DNA from: Corynebacterium timonense
Lineage (GTDB): Bacteria > Actinomycetota > Actinomycetes > Mycobacteriales > Mycobacteriaceae
Assembly (NCBI RefSeq): GCF_900105305.1
Contig: NZ_LT629765.1
Location: forward strand, 744,001-808,000
Direction: 5' to 3'
DNA: 64,000 nucleotides
Part shown: positions 38,923-45,883 of the stretch, piece by piece
How positions within the stretch are numbered: position 1 is the first letter of the stretch
How the letters are laid out: every line of letters starts with the position of its first letter
The notes under the pieces: model-generated
Databases searched by the model: none
Seen by the model: only the letters and a program-made list of their open reading frames with translations
What the model was told of the DNA's origin: nothing
Position numbers and translations under genes: made by a program

Positions 38923-38931
38923 GGCCGATGG

Positions 38932-39004
38932 AGCGGATGACGAGACTCGAACTCGCGACCCTCACCTTGGCAAGGTGATGCGCTACCAACTGCGCTACAT
39001 CCGC
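38932..39004 (-). tRNA. tRNA-Gly(GCC), copy 1
   Basis: The minus strand folds as a cloverleaf: acceptor GCGGATG with CATCCGC, anticodon loop CTTGCCA giving GCC, and TTCGAGTC T-loop. An encoded CCA lies at 38929-38931. Last gene of a six-tRNA minus-strand operon. Confidence 0.95.
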
Positions 39005-39038
39005 ACTCACTGTGTGTGTCGAGGGCAGTGACCCCCTG

Positions 39039-39110
39039 TGCGCGATACTGGGATTGAACCAGTGACCTCTTCCGTGTCAGGGAAGCGCTCTCCCGCTGAG
39101 CTAATCGCGC
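39039..39110 (-). tRNA. tRNA-Val(GAC), copy 1
   Basis: Minus strand: acceptor GCGCGAT pairs perfectly with ATCGCGC, anticodon stem CTTCC/GGAAG with loop reading GAC, T-loop GGTTCAATCC. CCA is not encoded. Compare with copy 2, which has a stem mismatch. Confidence 0.95.
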
Positions 39111-39129
39111 GGGAAGCCTGATGGCTTGG

Positions 39130-39200
39130 AGGTGGATACGGGAATCGAACCCGTGTACACGGTTTTGCAGACCGTTGCCTAACCACTCGACCAATCCACC
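39130..39200 (-). tRNA. tRNA-Cys(GCA)
   Basis: Minus strand: acceptor GGTGGAT/ATCCACC, anticodon GCA in loop CTGCAAA, T-loop GGTTCGATTCC, with CCA encoded at 39127-39129. It sits between the two Gly-Val units. Confidence 0.95.
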
Positions 39201-39259
39201 GTGGAGTTACCTCCAAAGTACCCGGCCCGGCCGGCACATACCCGCCGCCATGTACTTGG

Positions 39260-39332
39260 AGCGGATGACGAGACTCGAACTCGCGACCCTCACCTTGGCA
39301 AGGTGATGCGCTACCAACTGCGCTACATCCGC
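39260..39332 (-). tRNA. tRNA-Gly(GCC), copy 2
   Basis: Identical in sequence to copy 1 over the mature tRNA, including the encoded CCA (39257-39259). Part of the duplicated Gly-Val unit. Confidence 0.95.
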
Positions 39333-39368
39333 ACTCACTATGTTGTTGTACGAGGGAGTGACCCTCTG

Positions 39369-39440
39369 TGCGCGATACTGGGATTGAACCAGTGACCTCT
39401 TCCGTGTCAGGGAAGCGCTCTCCCGCTGAGCTAAACGCGC
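39369..39440 (-). tRNA. tRNA-Val(GAC), copy 2, acceptor-stem variant
   Basis: As copy 1 except that the 5' acceptor strand is GCGCGTT instead of GCGCGAT while the 3' strand remains ATCGCGC, so position 6 faces position 67 as U-U. The rest of the cloverleaf, including anticodon GAC, is unchanged. It may still be functional, but is less stable. Confidence 0.88.
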
Positions 39441-39462
39441 GAGCAGGTTCCGGAGAACCTGG

Positions 39463-39535
39463 AGCGGATGACGAGACTCGAACTCGCGACCCTCACCTTG
39501 GCAAGGTGATGCGCTACCAACTGCGCTACATCCGC
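39463..39535 (-). tRNA. tRNA-Gly(GCC), copy 3
   Basis: Third identical tRNA-Gly(GCC), with CCA encoded at 39460-39462. It is the promoter-proximal member of the minus-strand tRNA operon. Confidence 0.95.
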
Positions 39536-39786: not shown

Positions 39787-39858
39787 GGTCCTATGGCTCA
39801 GTGGAAGAGCGTTCCGTTCACACCGGAAAGGTCGCTGGTTCGAACCCAGCTAGGACCA
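39787..39858 (+). tRNA. tRNA-Val(CAC)
   Basis: Plus strand: acceptor GGTCCTA/TAGGACC, D-arm GCTCAGTGGAAGAGC, anticodon stem TTCCG/CGGAA with loop TTCACAC giving CAC, T-loop GGTTCGAACCC. CCA is not encoded. It is immediately followed by a terminator and then the insertion-sequence island. Confidence 0.95.
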
Positions 39859-39864
39859 CAAAAA

Positions 39865-39910: not shown

Positions 39911-39929
39911 GTGTTGTGGGGGCATCTGC

Positions 39930-39934
39930 GCCAC
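39930..39934. repeat. Target duplication of the outer IS, left copy
   Basis: GCCAC abuts the left inverted repeat at 39935 and recurs at 45108-45112 against the right repeat. Confidence 0.7.
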
Positions 39935-39980
39935 GGGTTAAGGGTCAAAATGTGTGTCTGGTGTCGGCGTGTCGCGGGGG

Positions 39981-40937
39981 TTAGATGTGGCCTTTTTGGA
40001 TGCCGATTGAGTGGGTGTAGTTGGTGTCGATAGCGTTGTCGTAGAGGGCTGGTCGTCCTGTTTCGTGGTCGGCGTGGTTCTCGTTGTGGGTCAGGGTTGA
40101 AGCTTTGGCGAGTTGGTCCTGACCCCAGTTGGACTGTCTGGCGATCTCGACTGGGTCGTCAGGCAGTTCTGTTTTCAGGTAAAGCCACCAGTCGAGCATC
40201 CGGCGTTGATGCTCACCGGATCTGCCGCGGTGGGTGCGGGCAAGCAGTTTCAGCTGGGCGTTGATCCCGCCTTCAAGACTGTTAGTCGTCGGTTTGATCC
40301 GCCCGGGGTTGATCACACCAGCGGGTGGGGCGAGGTAGACAAACAACAAGTTGTTGCGCCACAGGTGGTTGAGGCTGTTGTAGGCCTTGCGGGTGCGCTC
40401 ATGCGTCCACGACCAGGTGCGTTGTTTCGTCAATGGGTCGGTTGTCCACGTTTTCTGGTTCATCCAGTCGCGGTAGATAGTGCCGTATTCGTGGAGCTTG
40501 GCACCCCACGCGGCCGCCTCATCAAGATCGGTGATCTTCGTGAGGTTAAGCGCGAGATGGTAGATCGCTCGTCCAGCATCCGTGCGCGGGCGGGAGGTGG
40601 TGTAGCGGCGTACCACGCGTTGGGCGTGGACAAGGCAGCGTTGGATCTTGGTGTTAGGCCAGCACTTTTTGATCGCGCTGGCTGCGCCTTGTCCACCGTC
40701 GATCACGGCGATCAGGGGCGCGGGGATGCGTTCACACAGTTGCTGGTAGTCGCGGGTGGTTTCGTGTGTGCACCAGTGCCAGGCGATGACGTGATCCAAG
40801 GTGGCGGCAACGATGAGACATCCGCCAGCGGTGTAGGTGCCGTCGATGAACACCTGGTCGTATACCCGCCCGGTATGCGCGAGTGTGGGATCGGGCACAT
40901 CAATGAGCCAGCACCACGAAAACCGCCGTTTCATGGT
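39981..40937 (-). pseudogene. IS1249-like transposase, C-terminal part (split by insertion)
   Basis: An open stretch of 317 residues from KRRFSWCWLIDVPDP to SIGIQKGHI. It carries the DDE-type/MULE-like core: VYDQVFIDGTYTAGGCLIVAATLDHVIAWHWC (first Asp), LIAVIDGGQGAASAIKKCWP (second Asp) and NSLEGGINAQLK (Glu). The ATG at its head is accidental, formed where the IS21-like element entered. The N-terminal part lies 3.8 kb away at 44718-44946. The protein is not expected to be active in this form. Confidence 0.88.
40931..40937. repeat. Target duplication of the IS21-like element, left copy
   Basis: TCATGGT; the second copy is at 44718-44724. The duplication lies in the IS1249-like transposase gene. 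Confidence 0.8.
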
Positions 40938-41080
40938 TGTTGCGACCGGCTATTTGGTAGCAGCGTCGTGACTTTCCGGTAGCGCTTCAGTGAGTATCCG
41001 GTAGCAGCTCACAGCGCTCAAGGTGATACTTCCGGTAGCCGCACCACTCGGGTGCGGCTCGTACTGGAAGGAGTCCGCTT

Positions 41081-41206
41081 ATGACGGATTACCGTGCGGT
41101 GATGACGCTGCTGATTCGGCAGCGTTCTTACCGCCAGATTGAACACCAGCTCGGATGCTCGCACCGCGCGATTTCACGAGCGAACCAAGCACTGCGAAGC
41201 TTGGTC
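41081..41206 (+). pseudogene. istA remnant, N-terminal fragment
   Basis: MTDYRAVMTLLIRQRSYRQIEHQLGCSHRAIS is the N-terminal HTH of an IS21 IstA transposase. It is interrupted by the IS256-family element at about 41207. The frame then resumes one base out of phase at 42662 as LTTVEQVAALTDDELDEIF, and ends where the IS3 element begins at 42746. The DDE catalytic domain is absent, so it is inactive. Confidence 0.82.
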
Positions 41207-42661
41207 GGTTGCGTCCGCTAGCGTGGTGTACCTGTGACTGTCGGTGAGGGACCTCATGAACGTGTGAGGCGGCCACCGCAGTACCTTTCGAATCAATTCC
41301 AACATCTCCTCGAAAGGAACCAACGCGATGACCGCTGGACCCAATCATATCGACCCGACCGCCTACCTTGATGAGCTGCTCGCCCAAGCATCCCCGGATC
41401 TGATGCGTCAGATGCTGCAGGACTTCATCAACCAGATCCTCTCCACCCAAGCAGACAGCATCTGCGGGGCCGACTACGCCACAGTCAGCGACACCCGCAC
41501 CAACCACCGAAACGGCTACCGCCACCGCGACCTGGACACACGCGTGGGCACCATCGACGTGAGAATCCCGAAACTTCGCCACGGATCATTCTTCCCCGAC
41601 TGGTTGTTGGAGCGCCGCTCACGAGCAGAACGCGCCCTGGCCACCGTCGTAGCCACCTGCTACCTCAAGGGGGTCTCCACCCGCCGCATGAACGACCTTG
41701 TCGCCACCCTCGGGATCACCAACCTGTCGAAGTCACAGGTGTCTACCATGGCCAAAGAACTCGACGTGATGGTCGAAGACTTCCGCACCCGCCCGTTGGA
41801 CACCGGCCCCTACCTCTATGTTTCCTGCGACGCGCTGACGATGAAGGTGCGTGAAGGCGGGCGCGTCGTCAAAACCAGCGTGCTGCTGGCCACCGGGGTT
41901 AACGCCGACGGGTACCGGGAGTTGCTTGGTATGCAGGTCGCCACCGCCGAATCGGCCGCGTCGTGGACCGGGTTCTTCCGCGACCTGAAAGCCCGGGGCC
42001 TGGATCAGGTGTACCTGGTCACCAGCGACGCCCACCTAGGCATCCAAGCCGCTGTGGGTGACTGCCTACCCAACGCATCCTGGCAGCGGTGCCGCACCCA
42101 TTTCGCGAAGAATCTGTCATCGATGGTGCCGAAAACCCAGTGGCCGACATTGTCGGCGATGTTTCACACGATCTTCCAACAACCCGACGCCCAGGCCGTG
42201 TGGGACCAGGCCCGAGACGTCATTGAGTTTTGCCAGCAGAAGTTCCCCCATGTGGCGGATTACCTGGAGGAATCCTTGGACGACCTGCTGGCGTTTACGA
42301 ACGCGCCGAAAGCGGTGTGGACGAAGGTGTGGTCAAACAACCCCACTGAAAGGCTCAACCGGGAGATCAGACGTCGCACCGACGTCGTGGGGATCTTCCC
42401 CAACCGCGACGCCGTCGTGCGTCTGGTCGGGGCGGTACTCGCCGAGCAACACGATGATTGGATCCAGCAGAAACGCTACATGTCGCTAACCAGCCTGGAA
42501 CAGACCAAGACGATGATGACAGCCACCGTCATTGATGCCGGCGAATCCACTCAGGAGGTTGCATGAGCCCACGCCAGCACCGAGCTCGTGACGGCCCCTG
42601 ACACCGTCATCCTGCTTGTTCATATCGGAAGGCAGATACACCACCACCGTGGACTTGACCC
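41207..42661 (+). mobile_element. IS256-family insertion sequence
   Basis: About 1455 bp with imperfect inverted ends (GGTTGCGTCC... and the complement of ...GGACTTGACC, sharing GTCC and TGGTGTA blocks). CTTGGTC flanks both sides (41200-41206 and 42662-42668), a probable target duplication. It contains one full transposase gene and landed in istA of the IS21-like element. Confidence 0.78.
41328..42566 (+). CDS. IS256 family transposase
   Basis: A 412-residue, apparently intact transposase. DDE motif: YLYVSCDALTMKV (Asp), VYLVTSDAHLGIQAA (Asp) and NNPTERLNREIRRRTDVVGIFP (Glu). QRCRTHFAKNLSSMV is the family's C/H motif. AAAGGA lies about ten bases before the ATG. It is the only complete single-frame transposase of the island besides the IS3 orfB, so this element may still move. 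Confidence 0.95.
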   Translation: MTAGPNHIDPTAYLDELLAQASPDLMRQMLQDFINQILSTQADSICGADYATVSDTRTNHRNGYRHRDLDTRVGTIDVRIPKLRHGSFFPDWLLERRSRAERALATVVATCYLKGVSTRRMNDLVATLGITNLSKSQVSTMAKELDVMVEDFRTRPLDTGPYLYVSCDALTMKVREGGRVVKTSVLLATGVNADGYRELLGMQVATAESAASWTGFFRDLKARGLDQVYLVTSDAHLGIQAAVGDCLPNASWQRCRTHFAKNLSSMVPKTQWPTLSAMFHTIFQQPDAQAVWDQARDVIEFCQQKFPHVADYLEESLDDLLAFTNAPKAVWTKVWSNNPTERLNREIRRRTDVVGIFPNRDAVVRLVGAVLAEQHDDWIQQKRYMSLTSLEQTKTMMTATVIDAGESTQEVA

Positions 42662-42745
42662 CTTGGTCTGACCACTGTTGAACAGGTCGCGGCGTTGACG
42701 GATGACGAGTTGGACGAGATATTCGTAGATAGACGCAGTAGCGGG
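42662..42745 (+). pseudogene. istA remnant, second fragment
   Basis: After CTTGGTC the frame LTTVEQVAALTDDELDEIFVDRR continues IstA. It is cut off by the left end of the IS3 element at 42746. The rest of istA is not found on the other side. Confidence 0.7.
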
Positions 42746-42786
42746 TGTCAAGCCCCGAGTTTTGTAGAGGGTCCTATTGTTGTTGA

Positions 42787-43713
42787 TTAGGCCGCTTGGG
42801 TGTTCGCGGCGGTGTATTCCTGATGGACCTGGCGGGGTGGGCGGTACCCTAGCGCCGAGTGCAAGCGGCGGTTGTTGTACCAGCCGACCCATGTCGACGT
42901 CGCGACGAGAACATCTCGCAGTGCCGGCCAGGTCCTACGGTCGATGAGTTCAGCTTTGAACACTGAGTTCAGCGCTTCTGCCATCGCGTTGTCGTAGGAG
43001 TCTCCCCGCGAGCCAACCGAAGCGATAACCTGCGACTGGGCCAAGGTCTCTCCGTAGACGACCGACCTGTACTGCACGCCCCTGTCTGAGTGATGGATCA
43101 GACCGGAGACATCTTCACCGGCACGCAGGCGCGCTGACAAGGCCATGTCAAGTGCGTCTTTAGCCAGTGACGTGCGCATGTGGTTGGTGATCTGCCAGCC
43201 AACAATCTCCCGGGTATACGCGTCGAGGACGAACGAGGCGTACACCCACCCGGCACGCGTGGGGATGTATGTGATATCCGCGACCCACAGCCGGTTCGGC
43301 GCATCGACACAAAAGTCGCGCTCGACCAAGTCGACTGGGCAGTTATCGGGGGCAGCGCTGCGGGTGGAAGGCTTTTTCTTCCTGCGCCGGATACCACGGA
43401 TGTTGTCGAGTGCCATGAGACGCTCGACGGTGCACCGGGCGACGTGACAGACATCGCCTCGGCGATTGACCTCGGCCCATAGTGTGCGCGCTCCATAGCA
43501 GGAGTAGTTGTCGTCATAGATGGCACGCAAAGCTTTGCGTAGTTGTCGGTCGCGGATAGATCGAGATGATTCAGGCCGGGATTTGTGGGCGTAGTAGGTG
43601 CTCAGGGCGATTGTCGCGTCGGTTGCTGAAAGGGCGCGAATAATCGGCTCGACCCCGAATTCCTCCCGGTTGTCGTCGATGAACCGGACGATTACGTGTG
43701 TGGGCGCTCGCAC
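42787..43713 (-). CDS. IS3 family transposase OrfB
   Basis: A 308-residue OrfB with an integrase core: WVADITYIPTRAGWVYASFVLDAYTREIVGW (first Asp), LIHHSDRGVQYRS (second Asp) and YDNAMAEALNSVFKAELI (Glu). The N-terminal HTH_21 region has STYYAHKSRPESSR and YGARTLWAEVNRRGD. It begins at a GTG after TTTTTTTC, where the family usually shifts frame from OrfA. Because orfA is broken, the fused OrfAB can probably not be made. Confidence 0.92.
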   Translation of the reverse strand: MRAPTHVIVRFIDDNREEFGVEPIIRALSATDATIALSTYYAHKSRPESSRSIRDRQLRKALRAIYDDNYSCYGARTLWAEVNRRGDVCHVARCTVERLMALDNIRGIRRRKKKPSTRSAAPDNCPVDLVERDFCVDAPNRLWVADITYIPTRAGWVYASFVLDAYTREIVGWQITNHMRTSLAKDALDMALSARLRAGEDVSGLIHHSDRGVQYRSVVYGETLAQSQVIASVGSRGDSYDNAMAEALNSVFKAELIDRRTWPALRDVLVATSTWVGWYNNRRLHSALGYRPPRQVHQEYTAANTQAA

Positions 43714-44005
43714 TCCGCCGCGAAAAAAGCTGATGCTCTTTTCAAAATCTCGTTGGCGCGCTTCGCTTCAATCAGTTCAGCTCGCAGTCTGCGGTTTTCT
43801 GCTGCACAATCCACCGATTCAACCCGGGGTTGCCGCGCCGGATTGTTTATGAGCGCGGACCCAGCCGCGCAGAGTTTCCTTGACTGATTCCGAGCTCGAC
43901 AGCGATGCGGGATATCGCACCACGAGACGTGTCAGGGTCAGCTTGCGCGTGCAGCACCAGTTCGATGGCGCGCTGCCTCAACTCAGGCGTGTACTTCGAG
44001 GGCAT
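43714..44005 (-). pseudogene. IS3 orfA, frameshifted
   Basis: Begins MPSKYTPELRQRAIELVL...RIAVELGIS, the OrfA HTH. The frame is lost at about codon 41 (near 43882), continues in another frame as ETLRGWVRAHKQSGAATPG up to TGA, then in a third as CAAENRRLRAELIEAKRANEILKRASAFF. At least two indels are needed. The leucine-zipper region is visible in the last part. Confidence 0.82.
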
Positions 44006-44058
44006 GTGTAGGGCTCCTTTTCCAAATTCCTACCCTCTATTAAACCCGGGGCGAACCA

Positions 44059-44622
44059 CTGCTTAAAGCATCCCGATCGCCAAACCTTGATGCTTGCCTT
44101 GAAAACGTGGTGTGCACGCCTGACCGCAACATCAACCCCGAGCAAGTCAGCAGACTCGCTCACGGACAATGGTGCCACCTGGGCCAAAACATCGTCATCC
44201 TGGGCAAATCCTCAGTTGGTAAAACCTACCTCGCCCAAGCACTCATCACCGCAGCATGCCGCAACGACTACTCCGCACGGTTCTACCGCACCGACATGCT
44301 CGCCGCCGAACTGGCAGTCCTCCAACCCGATAACCCCACACGGCTGAAGTTCATCCAGCAACTCCACGACGTCGACGTCCTAGTCCTGGATGACTTTCTC
44401 ACCACACCTGTTGACGCCGCGACCGCGCACCAACTACTCAATATCCTCGCCGGGCGGGAACGCAAAGTCTCAACCATTGTGACCTCACAGTTCACCCCAC
44501 ACGAGTGGTACAAGTCCATCCCCGACGCCGTGATCTCCGAGTCAATCCTCAACCGACTCGTCTCCGGCGCCGAAATCATCACACTCGAAGGACCAAACAT
44601 GCGCCTGACCACCAACGCATAA
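44059..44622 (+). pseudogene. istB remnant, 5'-truncated
   Basis: From the base after the IS3 element the frame reads LLKASRSPNLDACLENVVCTPDRNINPEQVS and continues to a normal IstB C-terminus. Walker A is GKSSVGKT and Walker B LVLDDF; LNRLVSGAEIITLEGPNMR is the C-terminal signature. The N-terminal segment (about 60-70 residues) of the AAA+ transposition helper has been lost. The GTG at 44107 would give a shortened product of about 171 residues. Confidence 0.85.
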
Positions 44623-44717
44623 CAACCGGCAACGCCTGAGTGAGATACCGCTACCGGGTACCCACTCAGGCGCTACCAGATACTCACCACACCGCTACCA
44701 TTTCGGTCTTCTGAACA

Positions 44718-44946
44718 TCATGGTGGAGTGGCTGATCCCAGCGTCTCCTGCGATCTGCCTCAGGGCGGTGGTCGATGTGCAGTGCTCGATGAATTGTCGA
44801 AACACCGCTTGGTTGGTGATATCGCTGCGGGTTTTGGTGGTTGATGCACCGCAGATTTTGCAGCGCCACCGAGCGGTGCCCTTGGATGTGGTTCCGTTGC
44901 GTTTCATTTCCCCACCGCAGTGGCAGCGTGGTCGGTTCTTCGGCAT
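44718..44946 (-). pseudogene. IS1249-like transposase, N-terminal part
   Basis: MPKNRPRCHCGGEMKRNGTTSKGTARWRCKICG is a zinc-ribbon, followed by an HTH (ALRQIAGDAGISHSTM). The original frame continues into KRRFSWCWLID at 40930. In the present sequence it runs seven more codons into the IS21-like element and stops at 44695. Confidence 0.85.
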
Positions 44947-45083
44947 TGAGCCACCACACCACCGGCTCCTACCACATCAACCACGCCACACCGGGGATAT
45001 ACGACCACAACAGCGGGTATATGCCCTTAAGGCATATACTTCCGGAAACCACAAAGGTCAGGCACCGGAAATCACCAATTCCG

Positions 45084-45107
45084 GACACACATTTTGACCC
45101 TTAACCC
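45084..45107. repeat. Right inverted repeat of the IS1249-like element
   Basis: Perfect complement of 39935-39958 over 24 bases, abutted by GCCAC at 45108-45112. Confidence 0.88.
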
Positions 45108-45232
45108 GCCACGGTTGGCGGGAGGAGCCGCGGGAACTATTCTCTCGTGTTAACCGACTATTCAACCGCTGGTGGCTGCAGCCGCCCGCGGAACCACACT
45201 CGACGCGTACCTCTCGCTGCTGAAGGAGCACC

Positions 45233-45883
45233 ATGACGAACCCGACGAACCGCGCCCACGCCCGCACATCGACGACGCAGCTCACCCGCCGTGCGGCGGC
45301 AGCGGCGGCAGCGGCAGTGGGAGCGGTGGCTGCGGGGTGGGCTCCGCTGGCCCAGGCCCACGATGCCGTGACAGACGCGTCGCCGGGCGACGGTGAGGTC
45401 GTCACCGAGTTCCCCGACGAGCTCCGTCTTACGTTCTCCGGGCAGATCCAGGAGGGCTACAACACCCTCGCGCTGTCGAACGCGGATACGGAGGACGTGA
45501 TCTACACCGGCGACGCGTCGCGGGACGGTTTTGACGTCACCGTCGACCTGCCCGCCGACCTCGACCCCGAGCCCGGTAACTACCGGATCGGTTTCCAAGT
45601 CATTTCCTCGGACGGCCACGCGACGCGCGGCATGACCACCTTCGTTTACCAACCCGAGGGCTCAGCCCCCGTCGCGGCGGCCAGCGACCCCGCGGGTGCC
45701 GAGACCACGGACGCCGAGACCACAGACGCCGGGGACGAGGCGGAAGTGACCGAGGACGAGGTCTCCTCCAACAACTGGCAGATCGTGATCGCCGCGCTCG
45801 GCGTGCTCGCTATCGGCGGCGCTGCGATCGCGGTTCTGGCCAAGCGCCGCGGACCCCGTGACGGCGGGGCCGCGGAGAGCTAA
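45233..45883 (+). CDS. copC: CopC-like copper-binding membrane protein
   Basis: A 216-residue exported protein. The Arg-rich N-terminus (TQLTRRAAAAAAAAVGAVAAGW, Tat/Sec-like) leads to a signal cleavage at AQA-HDAVTDASP. The mature protein starts with His-Asp, the N-terminal copper ligand of CopC proteins. The CopC domain spans about residues 43-135 (PDELRLTFSGQI, YRIGFQVISSDGHATRGMTTFVY). A low-complexity linker and a C-terminal membrane helix (VIAALGVLAIGGAAIAVL) followed by KRRG anchor it. First gene of a three-gene copper/heme group. Confidence 0.88.
   Translation: MTNPTNRAHARTSTTQLTRRAAAAAAAAVGAVAAGWAPLAQAHDAVTDASPGDGEVVTEFPDELRLTFSGQIQEGYNTLALSNADTEDVIYTGDASRDGFDVTVDLPADLDPEPGNYRIGFQVISSDGHATRGMTTFVYQPEGSAPVAAASDPAGAETTDAETTDAGDEAEVTEDEVSSNNWQIVIAALGVLAIGGAAIAVLAKRRGPRDGGAAES

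Follow-up and report, generated by a model that had tools for sequence, protein, structure and literature searches.

A 64,000-nucleotide stretch of the Corynebacterium timonense genome (assembly GCF_900105305.1, contig NZ_LT629765.1, positions 744,001 to 808,000; hereafter the window) contains four insertion sequences (ISs) nested on three levels between a tRNA-Val(CAC) gene and a copC-like gene (Table 1). The outermost, an IS1249-group element, is split by an IS21-family element that itself contains an IS256-family and an IS3-family element. An initial annotation, made from the sequence, had proposed these four elements, and all of them lie where it had placed them, with protein models in agreement. 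Overall, we regard the locus with high confidence as a stack of successive transpositions in an IS-rich genome (IS1249, IS21, IS256, and IS3 together with a deletion) that would serve no joint function.

NF033544 (NCBIfam) matched both pieces of the outer transposase (E values of 1.6e-131 and 1.9e-18), the C-terminal piece with 439 bits (cut-off 300) and the N-terminal piece with 66.8 bits, placing the element in the IS1249 group of the IS256 superfamily; Pfam gave weak matches only for the larger piece and none for the smaller, whereas its results for the IS256, IS3 and IstB parts match those of NCBIfam. The frame of the N-terminal piece extends into IS21, to position 44695. The repeat search and the two protein matches bear out the earlier description of an IS1249-like element with 24-bp perfect inverted repeats. 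Its ends are identical or closely similar in four sister copies of the same genome (L009, L018, L019 and L020), and its first 1 kb shares 80-81% DNA identity with copies in five plasmid records (Corynebacterium, Cutibacterium and Winkia). Target duplications of 8 bp flank each of the six further IS1249 copies whose two ends were examined (the four sister copies and two in genome G016), whereas the window copy, whose transposase gene is also split, has flanks (TGCGCCAC and GCCACGGT) that share only the five bases GCCAC. These had been annotated as the duplication; they are present on both sides, but they are not the full duplication. Because the protein and the ends agree with IS1249, we read the short flank as damage to one copy, GCCAC probably being what is left of an 8-bp duplication after the loss of three bases at one end. 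Whichever end we infer to have been damaged, a three-base loss at either junction would give the observed pattern, and both versions lead to the same empty site, expected to read ATCTGCGCCACGGTTGG. Among random flank pairs from this window, a 5-bp match occurred in 31 of 20,000 and a 7-bp match in 33 of 200,000 draws, and the probability that the flank repeats arose by chance is small.

The second element resembles the IS21 family in its TGTT...AACA ends and its short target duplication; duplications of 5-7 bp were found in the window, in the copy L010 and in three short copies described below, and none at the IS21 ends of the copy L011b. The IstB helper match (E value of 1.7e-40) scored 139 bits, under the cut-off of 200, the protein being truncated, and a profile model needs more sequence than the istA scraps provide. 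The istA of L010, which is 99.6-100% identical to the window IS21 over the shared parts, reached 204.5 bits against the IS21 model (cut-off 160), and judging from L010 the full-length element would measure 2,646 bp. The window copy differs from its family in that istA is in scraps and istB is truncated. We confirmed the proposed split of IS1249 by this element, as its insertion site is empty in L009 and in the two G016 copies of IS1249, which are uninterrupted there and carry a single TCATGGT at the expected place; a position of TCATGGT elsewhere in such empty sites, which the annotation had named as evidence against its history, was not found in these copies. Elsewhere in its sequence, L009 contains a different IS3 that is flanked by a 4-bp duplication, and a second IS1249 was therefore hit independently.

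Within IS21 lies the IS256-family element, the only one of the four that still looks whole. Its mutator-type transposase matched NF033543 (E value of 4.1e-101; 338 bits, cut-off 150), and the element is 76.7% identical to IS3506 of C. jeikeium. Like its sister copies, it is flanked by an 8-bp duplication, complete on the right as CCTTGGTC and one base short on the left, and it shows nothing unusual for its family. The site is uninterrupted, with a single CCTTGGTC, in the IS21 copies L010 and L011b. Eight other copies in the same genome match the window element at 100% identity, and two more do so at over 99%.

Table 1. Features of the nested locus and related IS copies. Positions refer to the window unless a genome (G000) or locus (L) label precedes them.
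Feature	Position	Strand	Remarks
tRNA-Val(CAC), neighbour of the block	39787-39859	+	ARAGORN
IS1249 left flank TGCGCCAC	39927-39934	.	last five bases GCCAC, as in right flank
Layer 1, IS1249-group element	39935-45107	-	perfect terminal inverted repeats of 24 bp; layer 2 interrupts its transposase; repeat search and sister-copy comparison
IS1249 transposase, C-terminal piece	39981-40934	-	NF033544 profile 72-381
Left TCATGGT duplication of IS21 insertion	40931-40937	.	
Layer 2, IS21-family element	40938-44717	+	TGTT...AACA ends; about 1.64 kb missing; two ISs inside
istA N-terminal scrap	41081-41206	+	homology to open istA of L010; alone matches no NCBIfam model
Left duplication of IS256 insertion	41200-41206	.	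7 bp seen
Layer 3a, IS256-family element	41207-42660	+	in IS21; transposase 41328-42566 open
Right duplication CCTTGGTC of IS256 insertion	42661-42668	.	8 bp
Second istA scrap, between IS256 and IS3	42662-42745	+	100% to L010
Layer 3b, IS3-family element	42746-44058	-	no target duplication; orfB open, orfA frame broken
Truncated istB	44059-44622	+	NF038214 profile 70-231 for 44107-44622; upstream part by identity to L010
IS1249 transposase, N-terminal piece (zinc-binding part)	44718-44946	-	NF033544 profile 2-73
Right TCATGGT duplication of IS21 insertion	44718-44724	.	
IS1249 right flank GCCACGGT	45108-45115	.	
copC upstream block GGGAACTAT...TTAACCGACTATT	45132-45162	+	left intact by insertion
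copC-like gene, right-hand neighbour	45233-45883	+	PF04234
Mini-IS21 L015	G000 2212842-2213602		
Mini-IS21 L016	G000 1654930-1655693		
Mini-IS21 L017	G000 997005-997768		
IS256 insertion L025			in IS3
IS256 insertion L022	L022 2435-3888		in diverged (94%) copy of own family
IS256 insertion, triplet L132/L133/L136			in IS3-family element
IS256 insertion L135			in element of same kind as triplet target (IS3-family)
IS256 insertion L131	G000 880634-882087		interrupts BioF-like acyltransferase gene
IS256 insertion L134	G000 1755105-1756560		interrupts metX-like gene
IS256 insertion L021			beside IS1249 remnant
IS256 insertion L024			between IS fragments

The second element inside IS21 belongs to the IS3 family by its match to NF033516 (E value of 1.2e-87; orfB 294.6 bits, cut-off 160). 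The initial annotation had placed both IS256 and IS3 within IS21, and both are present, but IS3 is no simple insertion. One of its junctions lies early in istA and the other within istB, with no duplication, and about 1.64 kb of istA-istB is absent at this place, where L010 retains 1,641 bp (its own IS3 and one 3-bp duplication not counted) and L014 retains most of the DNA that is gone. As the missing duplication coincides with replaced DNA, the element marks a deletion. These two features, like the duplication around IS256, had not been noticed in that annotation. Four of the ten IS3 copies checked at both ends (L009, L010, L137 and L138) have 3-4 bp duplications, while the window copy, L011a, L011b, L013, L024 and L025 have none at the limits used. 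Both orfA and orfB frames are open in the IS3 copies L010 and L138; the window copy has a broken orfA frame.

IS150 is an IS3-family element. In Escherichia coli long-term lines, 14 IS150-associated deletions were classed as adjacent deletions, and both adjacent deletion and recombination between ISs are described as causes of missing duplications (PMC11708052). Either process may have removed the DNA at the window IS3. A more specific version, in which two IS3 copies in the same orientation within one IS21 recombined, losing the intervening DNA and leaving one IS3 without a duplication, would account for both the missing duplication and the deletion, and the former has been documented as a consequence of recombination between identical ISs (PMC11708052). 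However, the window IS3 is evenly closest to L137 (0-5 differences per 130 columns), with no mosaic pattern among the ten other aligned copies, two of them partial; this is weak evidence against recombination, as near-identical copies recombine tracelessly. We consider this version possible but doubtful.

An alternative explanation is that a related IS21 acted in trans to move an IS21 in which IS3 and the deletion were already present; IS3 would then predate the insertion into IS1249. Defective IS21 elements do seem to have moved in this genome at least twice: three mini-IS21 copies (761, 764 and 764 bp) show the same internal deletion joint and separate duplications (CAAGAT, GTAGTG and GTCCA), which suggests that the deletion came first and that they were moved later, presumably by the proteins of another IS21. 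Movement in trans is known for internally deleted ISs (PMC3189936), and the genome has a related IS21 whose istA and istB frames are long and open. Against this, neither window IS3 junction recurs in the same genome, each having one occurrence with 1 and 2 mismatches allowed. We regard an arrival of IS3 with IS21 as unlikely, and favor a later entry of IS3 into the resident IS21.

The nesting, together with the empty sites in sister copies, gives the order IS1249, IS21, IS256. In the proposed course of events, IS1249 would have entered the interval that separates tRNA-Val(CAC) from the copC upstream block, with an 8-bp duplication, three bases of which would later have been lost at one end. 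An IS21-family element would next have inserted into the IS1249 transposase gene with a 7-bp duplication, and an IS256-family element would later have entered istA of that IS21 with an 8-bp duplication. An IS3-family element would have inserted into the same IS21, about 1.64 kb of istA-istB being removed by adjacent deletion or recombination. The annotated order thus stands for the first three elements; the boundaries do not set that of IS256 and IS3, and IS3 possibly arrived with IS21. Judged by sequence identity, IS256 is probably the youngest, since it has zero differences from eight copies, compared to 98.9% identity between the window IS3 and the nearest copy found. Several points weigh against this history: the order of IS3 and IS256 depends solely on identity, GCCAC is five bases long where eight are expected, and the empty GCCAC site was not seen at the base level in G227 and G119 or in 16 relative loci, of which seven were aligned, the intergenic DNA being too diverged and the comparison set comprising one genome per species.

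It is extremely improbable that all 5.2 kb of the block move together as a single conserved composite element, even though the outer inverted repeats surround all layers. The annotation had named a repeated block as a result that would contradict it, and none was found: the same genome gave no second copy (40 of its 117 candidate matches were scored), a search across the genus, covering 201 genomes with its own included, gave none among the matches listed (two candidates scored per genome), and neither did plasmid records, where 0 of 7 matched records (five from Corynebacterium) covered 80% of the block at one place by megablast and single layers only were matched. Within these scored candidates and listed matches, the single mobile unit was rejected. 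Every listed match of the genus search outside the own genome was a single layer. The two IS1249 pieces adjoin without IS21 between them in G016 and in G101 (the latter from the match table only).

The same search listed an IS256 match beside an IS3 match, directly or 15 bp apart, in two other genomes of the genus (G126:C1:999269-1001428 and G192:C1:2020452-2022696). An IS256 next to an IS3 is therefore not unique to the window, and these places are perhaps further IS256-IS3 nests.

At the outer site, the IS1249 insertion precedes the copC upstream block and no broken gene was seen. tRNA-Val(CAC) was found by ARAGORN in 19 of 29 relative copC loci; in 16 of these the gap from the tRNA to copC measures 97-1,227 bp (450 bp or less in 12), with copC starts placed by script and with each locus spanning about 1.5 kb on either side, so that much larger gaps are invisible. 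The remaining three (L051, L052 and L055) were excluded from the gap comparison, as their tRNA and copC do not run in the same direction. Two closer loci are those of G227 and G119: the sequence GGGAACTAT is common to them and the window, and the second half of the copC upstream block is shared in full only with G119. The gap is 197 bp in G227 and 177 bp in G119, and 195 bp (200 less 5) in the window minus the block and one GCCAC; similarly, GGGAACTAT lies 100 bp and 87 bp from the tRNA in G227 and G119, respectively, and 94 bp in the window so reduced. The gap in these relatives is therefore as long as expected without the block. A named-species search with the copC protein gave 104 pattern matches, none of which was confirmed as a relative. 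Further upstream, the window contains a six-tRNA cluster (Gly, Val, Cys, Gly, Val, Gly; 38929-39535, minus strand) of near-identical repeated units, and similar Gly/Val/Cys tRNA clusters stand beside tRNA-Val(CAC) in many relative copC loci.

Nesting is frequent elsewhere in this genome. The 11 IS256 copies with at least 99% identity, including that of the window, represent nine insertions, since the duplication and the flanks are identical in three of the copies; another IS was the target in five of these insertions. The three (L133, L136 and L132, at G000 51, 2615105 and 2626626) have the common duplication CTCAAACA and a near-identical right flank of about 1.5 kb or more near contig ends, and are either a segmental duplication or an assembly effect. 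For IS21, 6 left and 12 right ends were found (up to two mismatches), and none of the 12 copies is whole: three are mini-IS21 elements, three contain an IS3 (L010, the window and L011b) and six are right ends without a left end. For IS3, at least 7 of its 14 left ends are situated within or directly next to another IS (IS21 for six, IS1249 for one), a lower bound, as the contexts of the other seven are partly worked out.

Three IS3 elements abut IS21 right-end remnants at clustered breakpoints, no more than about 20 bp apart (L011 13305, L012 4641 and L013 1258; window-equivalent approximately 44593, 44604 and 44611).

Survivorship may explain much of this IS-in-IS nesting, old ISs being low-harm sites. 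The six IS3 left ends at IS21 copies and the clustered breakpoints could be read as a sign that IS21 copies are a favored landing and deletion zone for this IS3, which is quite unlikely in our judgment; if true, then together with the mini-IS21 at three loci it would point to IS families exploiting each other preferentially, beyond the use of old ISs as safe landing sites. In Pseudomonas syringae, ISPsy17 interrupted by ISPsy19 and MITEPsy1 is likewise an IS hit by further mobile elements (PMC3189936); it involves other elements, and the window has three levels and a deletion. A literature search that combined "nested insertion sequences" and Corynebacterium found nothing under that wording, nor did four words for nesting give a hit in PMC3196728. 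The nest is ordinary for this transposon-rich genome.

As a single locus it carries little weight; it is a clean, orderable IS pile-up that is useful for strain marking and for checks of IS annotation. Short shared flanks alone can mislead, as in GCCAC taken for an 8-bp duplication and in an IS3 that is a deletion scar. Across the genome, with nine IS256 insertions forming a small data set, the frequency of IS256 and IS3 within older ISs fits a loss of those insertions that hit genes.

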